DNA from: a virus
Reading direction: 5' to 3' (one strand)
Length of the DNA: 22,996 bases
Virus record (IMG/VR): IMGVR_UViG_3300035698_020628
Coordinates: 1-22,996 of that record
The stretch's first letter is position 1. Each line of letters opens with the position of its first letter. Shown one piece after another: positions 12,243 through 20,103 of the stretch. Made by a program: the position numbers and the translations under genes. Below the pieces are notes generated by a model. The model ran no database searches and was not told where the DNA came from. It worked only from the letters and a program-made list of their open reading frames with translations.

Positions 12243-12274
12243 ACACCCTCATTACAATATGGGGGTGTATTTTA
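12243..12274 (+). terminator. Intrinsic terminator after the small structural gene
   Basis: ACACCCTC (12243-12250) pairs with GGGGGTGT (12261-12268), an eight-base-pair stem with one G-T pair and a ten-base loop, followed by ATTTTAG. The T-tract is short, so termination may be partial. It separates 11857-12216 from the genes starting at 12295. Confidence 0.65.
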
Positions 12275-13176: not shown

Positions 13177-16100
13177 ATGGCATTTGATATTACAAAATAT
13201 TTAGACGTACAAGCAACGATAGATGCTGACTTTGAATTTAGAGGTTCTGAGGGAAATTTAGATTTACTTCAAAATAAAGGTGTTTATAGAAAATGGTGTA
13301 TTCTTAGTGGTTCTACTCCAAGTGGAGGTACAGGAGCAACAGCAAATCCAACAGGCAGACCAGCTTTTGTTTATATGGAAACCTCGTCAGGTATTACATC
13401 TACATTATGGGAGATTAAAAGAAAAATATCATATAACACAACAGCAAGTCATTTTAAAATTGATATATTACTTTCTACCGATGTACTTGCTTCTACTGTT
13501 ATAACTGTAGAATACGCTACAGTTGCAAGTCCGAATACTACAACAGATTGGAGCGTTTTAAAAACAATACCGGCAACAGATGGGAATGCAGCGTGGTATG
13601 CAGACACTTGGGATTTTACAGGAATAACAACGCCTACTTTATGGGTTAGAGTTAGAGTAAGTTGTACAAATTCTTATCAGAATGATTTTTGTATAAGTAC
13701 TTGGAGAGAGTACGCTGTAAATTCAGGAATAAATATATCTGATGTAATTCCTTCAGAATTTGAACAGAATAAAGCAAGTATTGATGTACAAGGAGCACTT
13801 TTTGAAGCTGTACAAGGAGCAGGAAAATTGTATTTATCGGATGCAACTACTTTAGCTGGTTCCGTTAATGAAGTAGATATTTCAAGCGTAATAACATCTT
13901 GGACAGATACTTTAATCAATGTAAATTTATCAAATTTATCTGGTGCTCAATTAATAGCTTTAGATAATATTGGAGTTGGAAGTGTATATTTTATTATAGT
14001 CAGTAATGGAGGAAATGATAACTTTTTTGAAGTAATAATTCATAGAACGAAAGTTTTTGAAATAGATAATAGTGCATTTATAATAGGTGGTGGAGAAAAT
14101 ACGACAGCTCAATTAATACCTCCATTTAATAAAACTATAGGTAATTTTGGAGGTGGTAGAATACAAGATGATGTTAATATGAGTCCTTCATTACCTTTCT
14201 ATTTAAACCAATATAGAGAAGATGAATGGAGTATAAAAACATTAGATAATATTGTTGATACAGAAGTTTATGAGTTTAGAGTTTTAATTAACGGAAGTCC
14301 ATCAGATATTATAAATGTGACGCCTGAAATTACTATTGAAGCAGGAGTTACTAATGTAGTTTTAACACCTAATGAAAGCAACCATAATGTAACTTCCCAT
14401 AATACAGTAGTTGGTTCAAAATACATTACACTTGCAGAAGATTGTCAAAATTTACAGACAGCAGATGGAGTTGTAATTTCTCAAAGTTTTAGTTTAGTTG
14501 TTCAGGAAACTTTACACTCGCAAATAGTAGATATTGTGAATGTGAATGTAAGCTACATTGTTACGATAAATGATGCAGTTCATGACAATTTAACGGACAA
14601 TCCAATACTTACTTCAAAATACAATTTAATTTCACAAGATGCAACGCATTTACATTCTGTAGATGCAGTTATTATTTCACTTTCAGTAATAGTAATTGTT
14701 GCAGATAGTTTACATTCACAAAGTGCTGACAATATTTTAGGAACTGCAGATTATACTTCGGCAGTTCAAGATGCATTTCATTCTCATTTATCAGAATCCG
14801 TAGTTTTAGTTTATACTGCTCCAACTATTAATTTAGTGGTGGCAGATAGTAGCCACAACCATACAACAGACAGCACAGGAGTCGTTCCTTTTAACGATTT
14901 AGTAGTTCAGGATAGTTTACACGTTCAATTAGGAGATAGTTCTTTAATTGAGCCGAAATACGTTTTAGTTGTTTTAGATACTAATCATTTACATTTAGCA
15001 GAAAATGTAATAATTTCTACAGTTTATAATTTGAGTTGTGCAAATACATTGCATAGCCAAACTGTAAAAAATTTAGTTATAGGTTCATCTTCAAGTTTGG
15101 TTATTTCAGATACTTTACATTCGCATAATTCTGAGAATATAATTTTATCAAATAAATATGATTTAGGATTAAATGACACAATTCATTTACAAACTACAGA
15201 AAATGTAGATTTACTTCAAGCCGAAGATTTAACAGTACAAAGTTCAGTTCATAGCCATTCAACAGATGTTATTGTTTTACAGCAAGGAAATGTTTTAACA
15301 GTTCAAGGTAGTTCTCATAATCATAGTTCTGAAATTGTACTTATAAGCAATACTTACAATTTATTAATCGAAGATAGTTTACATAGTCATTCAGGAGCTG
15401 ATATAATTTCAACAGTCAAATATTCTTTGACAGTTCAGGATGCAAATCATCCTCAAATTACAGAAAATATAGACTTGGCTACAGCCGGGAATTTAAGTTC
15501 TGCAGATTCATTACATAGCCATTCAGCAGACAATTTAGATTTAGAAAATGTTTATAGCTTAGTTGTTAATGATAGTTCTCATAGCCATATAGTTGAGAGT
15601 GTAGTACTTTCAAATTCAGTTATTTTATTTGTAGATAGTTGTAATCATACTCAATTAACGGACCCGGTTATTTTAAGTGTTAATTACTTATTAATTACAA
15701 ATGATTCTACTCATTTAAATTCAATAAACAGCGCAACATTAGTTTCAAAATACGTTTTAATTTCAGATGATTCTAATCATTCACAAATAGCCGACAATTT
15801 AAGTTTAAGTTCATTAGGTATTTTAAGTGTTGCAGATAGTTCTCATATTTTAAATTCTGATTTAATTGATTTAATCCAATTCAATATTTTAGAAATTCAA
15901 AATAGTTCCCATACTCATAGTTCCGGGAGTCCTACAATAATCAATAAATACGATTTATTTGTAGCTGATGATTTACATTCTGTAGTTTCAGATAATATAA
16001 GTCTTTCAAAAAATATTATTTTAATTGTAAATGAAAGTTATCATAATCACAATACTGAAAATGTAATTTTAACCACAATTTACAGTTTAATCGTCTTTGA

Positions 16101-16416
16101 TAGTTCCCATATTCTAAGTTCAAGTGATTTAGTAATCACTAATAAGAATTCAATTATCGTTCAAGATACGTTGCACCAACATTTAACGGATGATTTAACG
16201 ATTGAGCCCCTGGGATTGGATTTAACTATTACGGAATTAATAGAAATTAGATCTCCGATAAATTTTGATTTAAAAATATCAAGTCTGATCTCCGGCTATG
16301 ATTCAGAAAGTAAAATTGAAGAAGTTTATAATTTTAAAAGTATTATCTTGACATCTATTAATATAAATACACCAATCACAAATGAAGTAATCATTAAAAC
16401 TAATTTATATGAGTAA
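13177..16416 (+). CDS. Giant histidine-repeat fibre-like protein
   Basis: This 1079-residue protein has a globular N-terminal half and a repeat shaft. Residues about 25-180 look like a jelly-roll or carbohydrate-binding type beta domain (YRKWCILSG ... WYADTWDFTG ... LWVRVRVSCT). Residues about 190-395 hold further beta modules, including one ending VYEFRVLINGSPSD. From residue 400 to about 1012 there are 28 copies of a 22-residue unit with consensus D-S-x-H-S-H-x-x-(D/E)-N-(x)12, hydrophobic every second residue. A short C-terminal tail (1013-1079) ends the protein. It is probably an extended virion fibre or spike (inference); no chaperone, protease or transmembrane segment is seen. It starts four bases after the previous gene, and its last eight bases overlap the next gene. 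Confidence 0.7.
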   Translation: MAFDITKYLDVQATIDADFEFRGSEGNLDLLQNKGVYRKWCILSGSTPSGGTGATANPTGRPAFVYMETSSGITSTLWEIKRKISYNTTASHFKIDILLSTDVLASTVITVEYATVASPNTTTDWSVLKTIPATDGNAAWYADTWDFTGITTPTLWVRVRVSCTNSYQNDFCISTWREYAVNSGINISDVIPSEFEQNKASIDVQGALFEAVQGAGKLYLSDATTLAGSVNEVDISSVITSWTDTLINVNLSNLSGAQLIALDNIGVGSVYFIIVSNGGNDNFFEVIIHRTKVFEIDNSAFIIGGGENTTAQLIPPFNKTIGNFGGGRIQDDVNMSPSLPFYLNQYREDEWSIKTLDNIVDTEVYEFRVLINGSPSDIINVTPEITIEAGVTNVVLTPNESNHNVTSHNTVVGSKYITLAEDCQNLQTADGVVISQSFSLVVQETLHSQIVDIVNVNVSYIVTINDAVHDNLTDNPILTSKYNLISQDATHLHSVDAVIISLSVIVIVADSLHSQSADNILGTADYTSAVQDAFHSHLSESVVLVYTAPTINLVVADSSHNHTTDSTGVVPFNDLVVQDSLHVQLGDSSLIEPKYVLVVLDTNHLHLAENVIISTVYNLSCANTLHSQTVKNLVIGSSSSLVISDTLHSHNSENIILSNKYDLGLNDTIHLQTTENVDLLQAEDLTVQSSVHSHSTDVIVLQQGNVLTVQGSSHNHSSEIVLISNTYNLLIEDSLHSHSGADIISTVKYSLTVQDANHPQITENIDLATAGNLSSADSLHSHSADNLDLENVYSLVVNDSSHSHIVESVVLSNSVILFVDSCNHTQLTDPVILSVNYLLITNDSTHLNSINSATLVSKYVLISDDSNHSQIADNLSLSSLGILSVADSSHILNSDLIDLIQFNILEIQNSSHTHSSGSPTIINKYDLFVADDLHSVVSDNISLSKNIILIVNESYHNHNTENVILTTIYSLIVFDSSHILSSSDLVITNKNSIIVQDTLHQHLTDDLTIEPLGLDLTITELIEIRSPINFDLKISSLISGYDSESKIEEVYNFKSIILTSININTPITNEVIIKTNLYE
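14374..16212 (+). repeat. 28 tandem 22-residue HxH repeats (protein-level repeat)
   Basis: The units begin at residue 400 of the 13177-16416 protein. Twenty-six are exactly 22 residues, the seventh (DAFHSH...) is 25, and the last is partial. The first His is kept in 27 of 28 units (the second unit has Asn). The residue two places later is His in 13 units and Gln in 8, giving H-x-H or H-x-Q. The copies differ at DNA level and are not a recent tandem duplication. The second half of each unit alternates polar and hydrophobic residues, as in a beta-solenoid or an intertwined fibre. Confidence 0.9.
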
Positions 16417-16702
16417 AGTATATTTAAATCAAACGAAACTCGAAATGACTGCGACTGTAGGGCAGGACATTACCGGAGCAACAGAAACATTAATTAAATA
16501 TTGTAAACCTTCAGGAACTAAAGGAAGCTTCACTGCAACTATTGAAGATGCTGTGCTTGGAATTTTAAAATTTGTCGACTTTGAAACAACAACTCTTGAT
16601 GAAGCTGGGGATTGGATTTTTTGGGGTTTTGTCACTTTTTCAGATGGTCGAAAAGCTGATGGGGAGCCGGACACAAAAACGATTTATACACCCGGTTCAT
16701 AA
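16409..16702 (+). CDS. Small beta-sandwich phage structural protein
   Basis: This 97-residue protein resembles the small baseplate or fibre-associated proteins that start VYLNQT and carry a K-P-(S/D)-G-T pattern: residues 1-60 read MSKVYLNQTKLEMTATVG ... YCKPSGTKGSFTAT, followed by a D-E-A-G-DWIFWGFVTF strand typical of the fold (BppU N-terminal-like). It has no enzyme motif. It overlaps the end of the repeat-fibre gene by eight bases and its stop overlaps the next start (TAATG), so the three genes are translated together. The role is probably as an adaptor or cap in the accessory fibre module (inference). Confidence 0.6.
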   Translation: MSKVYLNQTKLEMTATVGQDITGATETLIKYCKPSGTKGSFTATIEDAVLGILKFVDFETTTLDEAGDWIFWGFVTFSDGRKADGEPDTKTIYTPGS

Positions 16703-17055
16703 TGTGGAGTTTTATAGCATCATATTGGATTAAACAAACAGGAAAAGAAAAGCTTTTTATCTTAATTATCTTGGCTCTTCTTTTGTTTGGAATCGGAAAA
16801 GGAGCTCAAGCTGGTTATTATAAATATCAATATTTTAAACAGATTGAAAAGGAATATAAAACCTTAAAAGAAATTACAGATGCAGCCAATAAAAAAGAGG
16901 GGGAACTGATCGGATCTATAACAGATAATCACAAAACTGCAAAGAAAAAAAACGCAGATACTGACAAAAAACTAAAAGAAGATGAAGCCACAATTAACGA
17001 CTCTGATGTTTCTGATGATGACATTCTCGAGTTTATCTCAAAGCATCAAAAATGA
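16702..17055 (+). CDS. Inner-membrane anchored coiled coil, i-spanin-like
   Basis: This 117-residue protein has one N-terminal membrane helix (about 17-35, LFILIILALLLFGIG) after a short positively charged segment, then a Lys/Glu/Asp-rich coiled coil to the end. Such N-in, C-out topology with a periplasmic coiled coil is that of Rz-type inner-membrane spanins, which help disrupt the outer membrane at the last lysis step of phages of Gram-negative hosts. A second coiled-coil, exported gene overlaps its 3' end in another frame, as Rz1-type genes often do. It starts on the upstream stop (TAATG). No sequence-level family match is claimed; the call is by topology and arrangement. Confidence 0.5.
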   Translation: MWSFIASYWIKQTGKEKLFILIILALLLFGIGKGAQAGYYKYQYFKQIEKEYKTLKEITDAANKKEGELIGSITDNHKTAKKKNADTDKKLKEDEATINDSDVSDDDILEFISKHQK

Positions 17056-17350
17056 TAGTATTATAATAGGAAAAAAAACATTTATTTCTATTGTAAAAGA
17101 ATCTCGTAAATGTGATTCTCTCCGGGTAGCTTATGAAGTTAAATCTGTGGACTTTAAAAATCTCATAAACGAAAATATGGGGATGTTAATTGAAGTTGAA
17201 GAAGAGAGAAGGTCCCGGTTAAAAGCCGAGGAACGAATGAACGAGATCAGTAAAGATAACTTCAAACTTATTAAAAAAAATAAGAGCATTGTCTTTTGGG
17301 GGATAGGAGGTGTGGCAATCGGAGTCGCTGGCTCTCTTTTAATATTTTAA
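16982..17350 (+). CDS. Exported coiled coil with C-terminal membrane anchor, spanin-partner-like
   Basis: This 122-residue protein has an apparent cleavable signal peptide (residues 1-20, TTLMFLMMTFSSLSQ, with cut before Gln as is common in Bacteroidetes), a coiled coil rich in Glu, Lys and Arg (about 35-97), and a hydrophobic C-terminal helix (about 102-122, ending GSLLIF). It has no lipobox cysteine, so it is not a standard o-spanin. Its topology is closer to a unimolecular spanin that has lost the lipobox, or to a periplasmic coiled coil held in the inner membrane. Its first 74 bases overlap the previous gene in a different frame. A strong terminator follows 35 bases downstream, making it the last gene of the late operon. 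Function is inferred. Confidence 0.5.
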   Translation: MKPQLTTLMFLMMTFSSLSQSIKNDSIIIGKKTFISIVKESRKCDSLRVAYEVKSVDFKNLINENMGMLIEVEEERRSRLKAEERMNEISKDNFKLIKKNKSIVFWGIGGVAIGVAGSLLIF

Positions 17351-17385: not shown

Positions 17386-17406
17386 GCCCTCTCCGGAGGG
17401 CTTTTT
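17386..17406 (+). terminator. Strong intrinsic terminator ending the late operon
   Basis: GCCCTC (17386-17391) and GAGGGC (17396-17401) form a perfect six-base-pair GC-rich stem with a TCCG tetraloop, followed by TTTTT. It is oriented for + strand transcripts and lies 35 bases after the last late gene. Confidence 0.9.
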
Positions 17407-17411
17407 ATAGC

Positions 17412-17443
17412 AACAAAAAACCCTGCCGATTAAAGCAGGGTTT
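17412..17443 (-). terminator. Second hairpin, best read as a minus-strand terminator
   Basis: AAACCCTGC (17418-17426) pairs with GCAGGGTTT (17435-17443), a nine-base-pair stem with an eight-base loop. Read on the minus strand the stem is followed by more T (TTTTTTG over the stem end and beyond), a good intrinsic terminator. On the + strand it is followed only by TTTATG. Together with the + terminator six bases before, this looks like convergent termination. Confidence 0.6.
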
Positions 17444-17467
17444 ATGATAAAAAAAGATTATTACTAT

Positions 17468-17521
17468 TTAAAGTAAAATTGGAATGATAAAAGTAATTAT
17501 TATTCCCGGAAGTATCATCAT
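17468..17521 (-). CDS. Candidate 17-residue hydrophobic peptide on the minus strand
   Basis: A minus-strand reading frame (ATG at 17521, TAA at 17470-17468) would encode MMILPGIIITFIIPILL. It is preceded on that strand by a T/A-rich leader and a possible promoter, and followed 24 bases later by a minus-oriented terminator. The length and composition (nearly all hydrophobic with two prolines) recall the toxic membrane peptides of type I toxin-antitoxin systems or tiny phage membrane peptides, but no family match is claimed. It could equally be chance within a small non-coding RNA. Confidence 0.3.
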   Translation of the reverse strand: MMILPGIIITFIIPILL

Positions 17522-17544
17522 AAAAAACAAATTTTAAAAAAACA

Positions 17545-17575
17545 CTTGATTATTCAAAAGTATTTTATATGTTTG
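17545..17575 (+). promoter_or_regulatory. Bacteroidetes-type promoter for the early operon
   Basis: TATGTTTG (17568-17575) is a full match to the Bacteroidetes -7 consensus TAnnTTTG. Nineteen bases upstream is CTTG (17545-17548), three of four to the -33 TTTG. Transcription should start at about 17580, giving a leader of about 20 bases before the 17602 start codon. It follows the late terminator and precedes the DNA-metabolism genes, as expected for an early promoter. Confidence 0.6.
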
Positions 17576-17586
17576 TGTAGCATAAA
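17555..17586 (-). promoter_or_regulatory. Possible opposed minus-strand promoter
   Basis: On the minus strand TACTTTTG (17562-17555) fits TAnnTTTG, with TTTA (17586-17583) twenty bases upstream as a three-of-four -33 match. It would start a transcript near 17549 that runs to the minus terminator at about 17412. It overlaps the + promoter, so both could not be occupied at once. In AT-rich DNA such matches can be chance. Confidence 0.3.
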
Positions 17587-17601
17587 CACAAATACAAAAT
17601 C

Positions 17602-17733
17602 ATGAAAGAATCATTAGACGATTTTAAAACCGAATCTCCTGAAGACATACCTCAAAATTACTGCGAATGTGGAAACCCAATTAATGAGGATAAAGACTAT
17701 TGTTCAAAGAAATGTTTAACAGATAATATGTAA
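17602..17733 (+). CDS. 43-residue zinc-finger protein
   Basis: This short gene begins 27 bases after the promoter -7 box. It encodes 43 residues with an acidic N-terminal half and a C-x-C-(x)11-C-x-x-x-C motif in YCECGNPINEDKDYCSKKC, the layout of small zinc ribbons of the DUF2116 type (C-G-x-P-I ... YCS-x-x-C). Cys21, Cys23, Cys35 and Cys39 are the expected metal ligands. It is probably a protein- or nucleic-acid-binding adaptor; as the first early gene it may act on the host soon after infection (inference). It was chosen as real because of the motif, the promoter position, the A-rich leader and the four-base gap to the next gene. Confidence 0.6.
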   Translation: MKESLDDFKTESPEDIPQNYCECGNPINEDKDYCSKKCLTDNM

Positions 17734-17737
17734 AACT

Positions 17738-17998
17738 ATGGCACTATTTTTTCATAAACCAAAATTATTATTCACTTTTGAGCATGAGACGATTGATGAT
17801 ATAAATCATATCTATGATAAAGTCGATGACATGGAAACTTTAATTATGTTCGTTTATTATTGCTTGGAAGCTTGTGAACATTTAGAGGGAAATAAAAATG
17901 AAGATGCGAAAACAGTCTTTGAAATATATCAGAGTGTTGGGTATCCGTTATATGCATTTATTACTAACAAATCTTACGAGAGCAAAATACAAATATGA
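17738..17998 (+). CDS. Hypothetical early protein, acidic and helical
   Basis: This 86-residue protein is unrecognised. It is acidic and mainly helical, with residues 18-30 rich in Asp (TIDDINHIYDKVDD) followed by an aromatic helix (LIMFVYYCLEACEHLE). There is no DNA-binding motif, signal peptide or clear membrane span. It lies four bases after the zinc-finger gene, and its stop overlaps the next start (ATGA), so it is translated with the HTH gene. Small acidic early proteins in phages often inhibit host functions, but nothing here shows that directly. Confidence 0.6.
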   Translation: MALFFHKPKLLFTFEHETIDDINHIYDKVDDMETLIMFVYYCLEACEHLEGNKNEDAKTVFEIYQSVGYPLYAFITNKSYESKIQI

Positions 17999-18225
17999 TG
18001 GAAGTATTATTACAAGAATTGAAATTAGTCTCTGACATTGCTCCTACAGGAAGCCATGTTAAAGTCGCAGAAAAAAATAAAATATCTACTGAGTATTTAT
18101 ATCAAATTAGAAATGGTAAAAATATGAAATTAGACACTCCTGAAAATAGGAAAACAATGGAATCATTAATAAAATCATATAGAAATGAAATCTCTAAATA
18201 CCAAAAAAAACTCAATGAATTATAA
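17995..18225 (+). CDS. Small HTH DNA-binding protein, candidate early regulator
   Basis: This 76-residue protein contains a helix-turn-helix-like segment at about 20-42 (SHVKVAEKNKIST-EYLYQIRNGK), where the second helix with Y-Q-I-R-N-G-K resembles the recognition helix of small XRE/Cro-type phage proteins. The C-terminal part is a charged helix (ESLIKSYRNEISKYQKKL) that may dimerise. It is translationally coupled to the gene before it (ATGA). It lies three genes downstream of the overlapping promoters at 17545-17586 and is the obvious candidate to bind them, though no operator repeat was identified with confidence. It could also be a host-directed regulator. Confidence 0.65.
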   Translation: MMEVLLQELKLVSDIAPTGSHVKVAEKNKISTEYLYQIRNGKNMKLDTPENRKTMESLIKSYRNEISKYQKKLNEL

Positions 18226-18460: not shown

Positions 18461-18874
18461 ATGGAAAACAAAGAAACAAGTTTAGTGGCAATCGGAAATT
18501 TGCCTGACTTACATGAAGCGAAAACATCTCCGAGAGAGTTGTCTTCAGATTATTGGACACCTGAACTCGATGGAGAATATCGAGTGGGTGTAATTATGGA
18601 TATTAAAGAGGAAACTTATGAAAATGAGGCAGGGGAAAAAATACAACTTCCTTGCATTATTATGTTATCACAAAACAAAGACAAAACTTTCTCAACCATT
18701 AGAAATGGGTCAAAGAGATTAGTTGGAACTGTCGAAGGAGCAGTTGAAAATGGAGAAATTGTACTTGGAGAAACTCCTGTTCGTATTGAGTATCTTGGTA
18801 AGACTAAAAACAAGACTAATTCATTCAAGTCGGACAGATGGAGTGTTAAACCTATTCTTTTAAAATCTAAATAA
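18461..18874 (+). CDS. Hypothetical recombination-associated protein, possible OB-like fold
   Basis: This 137-residue protein lies immediately before the RecE-like nuclease gene and overlaps its start (TAATG). Residues about 33-130 are beta-rich (ELDGEYRVGVIMDIKEETYE ... CIIMLSQ ... VRIEYLGKTKNKTN) and could be an OB-type fold binding single-stranded DNA, but no family match is claimed. Residues 14-20 are LPDLHEA, and the same heptapeptide occurs at residues 11-17 of the nuclease. The gene pair is probably a functional unit for DNA end processing or replication. No catalytic residues are apparent, and the C-terminus is basic (WSVKPILLKSK). Confidence 0.6.
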   Translation: MENKETSLVAIGNLPDLHEAKTSPRELSSDYWTPELDGEYRVGVIMDIKEETYENEAGEKIQLPCIIMLSQNKDKTFSTIRNGSKRLVGTVEGAVENGEIVLGETPVRIEYLGKTKNKTNSFKSDRWSVKPILLKSK

Positions 18875-20103
18875 TGGATATAAAAGAAAAACTAAAAAAT
18901 ACCCTGCCTGATTTACATGAGGCAGGGGTTTTAGGAAGCGAAATCTTCAGTCCTGACATTGATTACACAAGACCTCTAAAAGAGTATCCAACGGCTAATG
19001 ACATAGTTTCATTTTTGCAAAGCGATGCAAAGCCAAAGCATATTTACACAAAGGATCTAAATAAAAATGGAATTGCAGTTCAAGATGCAATGGATAAATA
19101 TTTAGAGGATGATTCTAAAAGTTCAGGTATGCTAAAAGCTGCAATTAAGACTCCGATGCATTATCAGTTTGCAAAAGATGACGATAAAAGAGAACTTGAA
19201 AAACTAAAAGGAACTCAGAAGCATTTTGAACTTGGAAACTTCCTGCACGAGGCTATTTTAGAACCGACAAAATTTGGGAGAGTATTAGTTGAGCCGAAGT
19301 ATTCTTTAGCATCTAAAGAAGGAGTCAATTATGGGACTGAATTTTGGGAGCAAACAATTATCGAACAAGGATTTGGTGTCGATGAGAATGGAGAAGAACT
19401 TGAAGGAGCATTGGTTCTTCATTTATCAAGTGAAGAAGTTATAAAAGCTGGGTTGAGTTTTGATAAGCAAGATGGAAAAAAATTATATCTATCAAACTTA
19501 AAACGATTATCAGGGATGACTCCTGTTGGAGAGGAAAATTACCTTAAAATTCAGATTCTTAAAAAGCATTATGAAAACTACGGAGGAGGAGGAGTTCTTA
19601 AAAGATTGCTTCTTCATTCAAAAAGGGAAATTTCTTTTTATTATACCGACCCATCTACAGGCATAAAATTGAAAGTAAGGCCTGATTCTCTGCAGTTCAA
19701 AGAAAACATAGGTGTTGATGCCATTATATCAGTTAAGAGTTCAGGAACGGAAGATTTAAAAGCGTTCTATTATCAGGCTGCAAAAATGCACTACGACTTA
19801 TCGGAGGGAATGTACCAAGAGGTTATTTCGAATGTGACAGGTAGAGATTTCAACACAACAATTATGGTTTTTTTACAAACGGTTGCTCCATTTGCTGTAG
19901 CTATCTTAGTTTGGAGTCCTGAAGATATTGAAATGGGAAAATATAAGTTTAGAACTGCTTTGAACATCGTAAATGAATGTGACGAAAAAGATGTTTACCC
20001 TGGTTATGATGCATTTGCAGAAGAGGGCAATTTTGGACTGATAACGATGGAACTTCCACAATGGAATAATTCTCCATTATTACCTATAAATACAGAAAAT
20101 TAA
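18874..20103 (+). CDS. RecE-like PD-(D/E)xK exonuclease (PDDEXK_7/exodeoxyribonuclease VIII family)
   Basis: This 409-residue protein has the pattern of phage RecE-type exonucleases, which resect duplex ends to start recombination. Visible motifs are G121-N-F-L-H125-E-A (the G-x-x-x-H segment), E252 in the strand before STGIKLKVRPD271, then A-I-I-S286-V-K288-S and Q301-AAKMHYDLSEGMYQ, as in the family's C-terminal motif. The family normally has an acidic residue before x-K (D-x-K); here Ser286 takes its place, so activity or metal use may differ. The N-terminal 100 residues are less clear and hold the LPDLHEA heptapeptide. It starts on the upstream stop (TAATG) and ends just before a terminator. 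There is no RecT-like annealing protein nearby unless the 137-residue partner fills that role. Confidence 0.75.
   Translation: MDIKEKLKNTLPDLHEAGVLGSEIFSPDIDYTRPLKEYPTANDIVSFLQSDAKPKHIYTKDLNKNGIAVQDAMDKYLEDDSKSSGMLKAAIKTPMHYQFAKDDDKRELEKLKGTQKHFELGNFLHEAILEPTKFGRVLVEPKYSLASKEGVNYGTEFWEQTIIEQGFGVDENGEELEGALVLHLSSEEVIKAGLSFDKQDGKKLYLSNLKRLSGMTPVGEENYLKIQILKKHYENYGGGGVLKRLLLHSKREISFYYTDPSTGIKLKVRPDSLQFKENIGVDAIISVKSSGTEDLKAFYYQAAKMHYDLSEGMYQEVISNVTGRDFNTTIMVFLQTVAPFAVAILVWSPEDIEMGKYKFRTALNIVNECDEKDVYPGYDAFAEEGNFGLITMELPQWNNSPLLPINTEN
18902..18932 (+). other. Terminator-like hairpin inside the start of the nuclease gene
   Basis: CCCTGCC (18902-18908) and GGCAGGG (18921-18927) form a perfect seven-base-pair stem with a twelve-base loop, followed by GTTTT. 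It lies 28 to 58 bases into the coding region. It could halt RNA polymerase when ribosomes do not follow closely, or reduce translation. It may also be a coincidence of codons. Confidence 0.4.

Follow-up and report, generated by a model that had tools for sequence, protein, structure and literature searches.

A late/early junction in a Flavobacteriaceae-type phage genome fragment is probably a lysogeny switch site that lost its repressor arm

Phages P2 and 186 have switch promoters that lie face to face. The facing promoters of several relatives of the phage described here appear to resemble that layout, although the phage itself lacks a facing promoter. The sequence analysed (the window), a virus record of 22,996 bases, represents a genome fragment. 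Related loci were collected with two queries, the RecE-like nuclease gene at 18874-20103 (L002-L005 and L008-L019) and the 137-residue gene preceding it (L020-L034); several of L002-L034 are different cuts of one contig. In temperate relatives, the junction between late and early genes carries a minus-strand repressor of the CI/Xre type, whose promoter faces the early one, and often an integrase as well. Of the divergent minus-strand genes scanned in 19 related loci, 15 have matches to HTH_3 and/or Peptidase S24, as phage repressors of the CI/Xre type do (the L029 and L031 matches are below the curated cut-off). The divergent genes of L005, L015, L016 and L028 match neither HTH_3 nor Peptidase S24, and L009 differs in having its HTH_3 gene on the + strand. 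Phage_integrase is matched in 15 of 21 related records. In L033, the late terminator is immediately followed by the gene of a very small HTH_3 protein (76 aa, L033:4735-4965), and this by the early operon; the 13.7-kb record has no integrase match.

Ten of 17 relatives have a promoter on the minus strand whose start falls 0-20 nt downstream of the early one; from shuffles of the same stretches, 0.37 would be expected. Facing repressor and early promoters with start sites 4-19 nt apart were seen in L003, L004, L008, L012, L013, L015, L028, L029, L031, and L034, and several of these ten early promoters hold a palindrome in the -33/-7 spacer. Operator-like palindromes centred at -17 to -23 occur in the early promoter spacer of about 9 of the 17 relatives (L003, for instance, has TATCAAATATTTGATA, and L029 has TTTACAATTTGTAAA). 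Facing promoters with a spacer palindrome seem to be a compact switch design common in this group. Some relatives (e.g., L004, L010, L034) also have minus-oriented or bidirectional terminators downstream of the repressor operon.

All credible genes of the 22,996-base window lie on the + strand. The junction is bounded on one side by the last late genes (16702-17350) and on the other by the first early ones (17602 onward); the features in and around it are as follows:

16702..17055, + strand: first of the two overlapping frames that form the last late genes; a 44% identical homologue is at the same place in L005
16982..17350, + strand: second frame of this overlapping pair and the last late gene; homologue in the L005 record (50% identity, E 2e-27)
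17386..17401, + strand: stem-loop of the late terminator, followed by TTTTT
17443-17418, - strand: terminator-type hairpin for minus-strand transcripts; a T run follows its stem of 9-10 bp
17521-17468, - strand: ATG frame of 17 codons encoding MMILPGIIITFIIPILL; in all likelihood no gene
17546..17575, + strand: early promoter, TTG-N19-TATGTTTG, with a start expected near 17581
17562-17555, - strand: -7-like box, TACTTTTG, without TTG at -33; weak candidate promoter
17572..17592, no strand: perfect dyad TTTGTGT-AGCATAA-ACACAAA around the early start site
17602..17733, + strand: first early gene, encoding 43 aa that include paired cysteines
17680-17653, - strand: full-consensus promoter match, TTG-N17-TAATTTTG, inside the first early gene

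The sequence-only reading of this DNA had described a control region here, and the coordinates it gave for the elements are correct. Its early promoter on the + strand is confirmed: 17546-17575 fits 9 of 9 consensus positions, as only two other + strand sites of the window do, and has the features of the Bacteroidota sigma-A type (TTG, a spacer of about 19, TAnnTTTG). The TAnnTTTG motif is the -7 box documented for Flavobacterium psychrophilum (PMC9723704). A promoter of the same kind is found at the same place in 17 relatives. The dyad around the start site is a possible operator; dyads of this kind arise in 35% of shuffles.

The overlapping late pair at 16702-17350 is putatively lysis-related and spanin-like, a guess at function. 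L005 is syntenic with the window on both sides, sharing this pair and the early genes at 17995-18225, 18461-18874, and 18874-20103. Between the two blocks L005 first has a 425-residue gene; then come a + terminator, an integrase, a + frame of 108 residues, and a minus-strand gene of 155 residues, followed by its early promoter (TATATTTG) and the early genes. The early protein encoded at 17995-18225 (76 residues, conserved in L005 at 58%, no family match) has a helix-turn-helix look and is possibly a Cro-like regulator. Elsewhere in the late region, the protein encoded at 13177-16416 has 1079 residues with many similar repeats (SLHSH-like units, self-matches in translated comparison), and a strong + strand hairpin between two late genes (12243-12268, -14.9 kcal/mol) is possibly an internal terminator.

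The junction of the window occupies the same position beside homologous early genes as the CI/Xre-type switches of L003, L004, L008, L010, L012, L029, and L034, and shares with them the TTG/TAnnTTTG kind of early promoter. It differs in having no repressor gene, integrase, usual repressor promoter, or clear spacer palindrome. Neither HTH_3 nor Phage_integrase is matched in the window fragment, and no minus-strand gene stands at the junction, so that the early promoter has no divergent repressor gene beside it. No facing minus promoter starts within the 0-20 nt that follow the early start; the minus box TACTTTTG lies 32 nt the other way and corresponds to the relatives' promoters in neither place nor quality. 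No spacer palindrome rises above chance in the window (best dyad with 4-bp arms, p 0.54) or in Flavobacterium phage FpV9 (p 0.56); among the relatives, too, roughly half have no clear one. With both facing promoter and spacer palindrome lacking, the relatives' switch signals are therefore missing here, and those of the sequence-only reading are different ones. Its proposal of a switch was right about the position, which is exactly that of the relatives' lysogeny switch, whereas repressor, integrase, and facing promoter are absent from the window.

We consider it probable, at roughly 0.6, that late and early genes of a Flavobacteriaceae-type phage genome meet in this region, that it is the ancestral site of a lysogeny switch, and that the repressor arm of that switch has been lost. 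The late operon would stop at 17386-17401 and the early operon would start at about 17581 from the full-consensus promoter, with no repressor at that position to close it. The minus-strand hairpin (17443-17418) would then be the leftover terminator of the lost repressor operon and might still insulate the lysis genes from stray antisense transcripts. The signals themselves, the gene layout of the relatives, and the window's lack of matches to repressor or integrase families were observed directly. Removal of the arm by deletion, unrepressed early expression, and an insulating role for the hairpin would follow as interpretation. A repressor or an integrase may possibly be encoded elsewhere in the genome, beyond the window fragment.

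We infer loss in the window, rather than gain in the relatives, from a record that is a fragment. Searches of the phage collection, the viral contigs, prophages, and the fetched loci found no sister phage. In the phage collection no DNA similarity to the window was detected, and an exact 19-base search at the early promoter gave no match in viral contigs. The prophage search covered 397 genomes of the G006 family (two queries) and 320 of the G008 family, and two match, G008 itself and G412. As these searches turned up no sister phage that shares the hairpin, the remnant status of the hairpin is read from its position and not from homology. PADLOC, run on seven proteins, returned one marginal match (E 0.0098) that is not credible.

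The phage FpV9 (KT876725), whose host is Flavobacterium psychrophilum, encodes a protein 54% identical to the product of the gene just downstream of the junction. Its own junction consists of a + terminator and an early promoter (TACATTTG), all 58 of its annotated genes are on the + strand, and it has no Phage_integrase match and no repressor at the junction. FpV9 and its near relatives thus resemble the window in having a compact late-terminator/early-promoter junction without a repressor. In FpV9, however, the minus-strand terminator is absent, and nothing matches the late protein of 16702-17055. That a second phage without a repressor at the junction lacks this terminator counts against the reading as a lost repressor arm, as does the recognition of terminators after the repressor operon in only some relatives.

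Folding and a terminator scan both confirm the back-to-back arrangement of the late terminator and the minus-oriented hairpin that had been proposed. The hairpin at 17443-17418 has the features of an intrinsic minus-strand terminator (a G+C stem, then a T run), folds at -15 kcal/mol (z -4.6), and is the sole minus-strand terminator in 23 kb under strict criteria; shuffled windows yield 0.1 strict terminators each, both strands together. Its conservation in related phages had been proposed as a check; its pattern, searched in all fetched loci, matches the window's own stretch alone. Could the hairpin instead serve the late transcript, as a back-up in which tandem hairpins stop or stabilise the + RNA and no minus transcript is involved? 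It folds on the + strand too, where it closely follows the first terminator, and relaxed scan criteria also pick it up there (-13 kcal/mol). The T run, however, is on the minus side, and the hairpin makes a poor + terminator because its stem runs into ATGATAAAAA, not a T run, on the + side; we regard a back-up role as distinctly unlikely.

Two candidate promoters could direct transcription toward the hairpin on the minus strand. The box at 17562-17555, from which the sequence-only reading had launched a transcript, exists as a string and is weak as a promoter: its best -33 element is ATG at N18 (8 of 9 consensus positions), and TAnnTTTG appears on the minus strand in 29% of dinucleotide shuffles of 17444-17601. 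The full-consensus match TTG-N17-TAATTTTG outranks it and had gone unmentioned. Without the terminator, the minus leader folds with z -2.46 (3 of 200 shuffles fold equally well), compared with z -1.26 for the less distinct fold of the plus strand. Given the two candidate promoters and this fold, a short minus-strand RNA is therefore possible, of about 135 nt (from 17549) or about 230 nt (from about 17647), which would end at the hairpin and regulate the early promoter or the first early gene, either because the promoters overlap or through antisense pairing. The leader fold weakly favours such an RNA, the strong terminator and the full-consensus promoter speak for it as well, and independent short structured RNAs are common in Flavobacterium psychrophilum (PMC9723704). 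Against it, the promoter at 17562 has no -33 TTG and is within chance, Rfam gave eight sub-threshold matches, all far under the cut-offs, and the hairpin is in no related locus, so that conservation or covariation of the RNA cannot be shown. On balance we think a small RNA unlikely. A combined course of events is very unlikely: after losing its protein repressor, the phage would have kept or recruited a structured minus RNA with its own terminator, competing with or silencing the early promoter. Should a minus RNA prove real, it would rank among the rare cases of RNA-based control in Bacteroidota phages.

Toxins of type I systems, the Ibs type among them, include short and very hydrophobic peptides. 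The 17-residue peptide that had been predicted on the minus strand is likewise short and very hydrophobic (94% hydrophobic residues), and its frame is exactly where it was placed; that it is a gene is improbable. In shuffles of the 109-nt leader, frames of at least 17 codons occur in 8% and hydrophobic ones of 15 aa or more in 2.5%. The whole window contains 21 ATG frames of 12-40 aa that are at least 70% hydrophobic, one of which (MIKVIIIPGSIIIKNKF, at 17484 on the + strand) is directly opposite MMILPGIIITFIIPILL. The start context is poor: T occupies position -3, which is A in 23 of 28 window genes, and AUG codons, of which this frame has two in tandem, are under-represented close to the starts of Flavobacterium and Bacteroidota genes (PMC6847099). 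We found no relative of the peptide, and no antisense RNA partner or candidate was identified opposite its frame. An expressed small membrane protein or toxin of the type I kind would agree with the exact, hydrophobic frame, yet the many comparable frames, the start context, the lack of an identified antisense RNA partner, and an unrelated hydrophobic-rich minus frame at the FpV9 junction all argue against it, and we hold it to be extremely improbable. The window peptide differs from type I toxins in occurring at chance level, without an antisense RNA or conservation. We set the toxin reading aside on these grounds and take the frame as most likely due to chance. A coding remnant of the repressor in the minus leader was also rejected, the leader having no ATG frame other than the 17-codon one.

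If the repressor arm was indeed lost, this single junction would display what remains after a temperate phage of the Flavobacteriaceae type loses its lysogeny module. It would also provide a simple marker, a bare early promoter with neither a spacer palindrome nor a facing promoter, that may help to separate repressor-less from temperate phages of this group.
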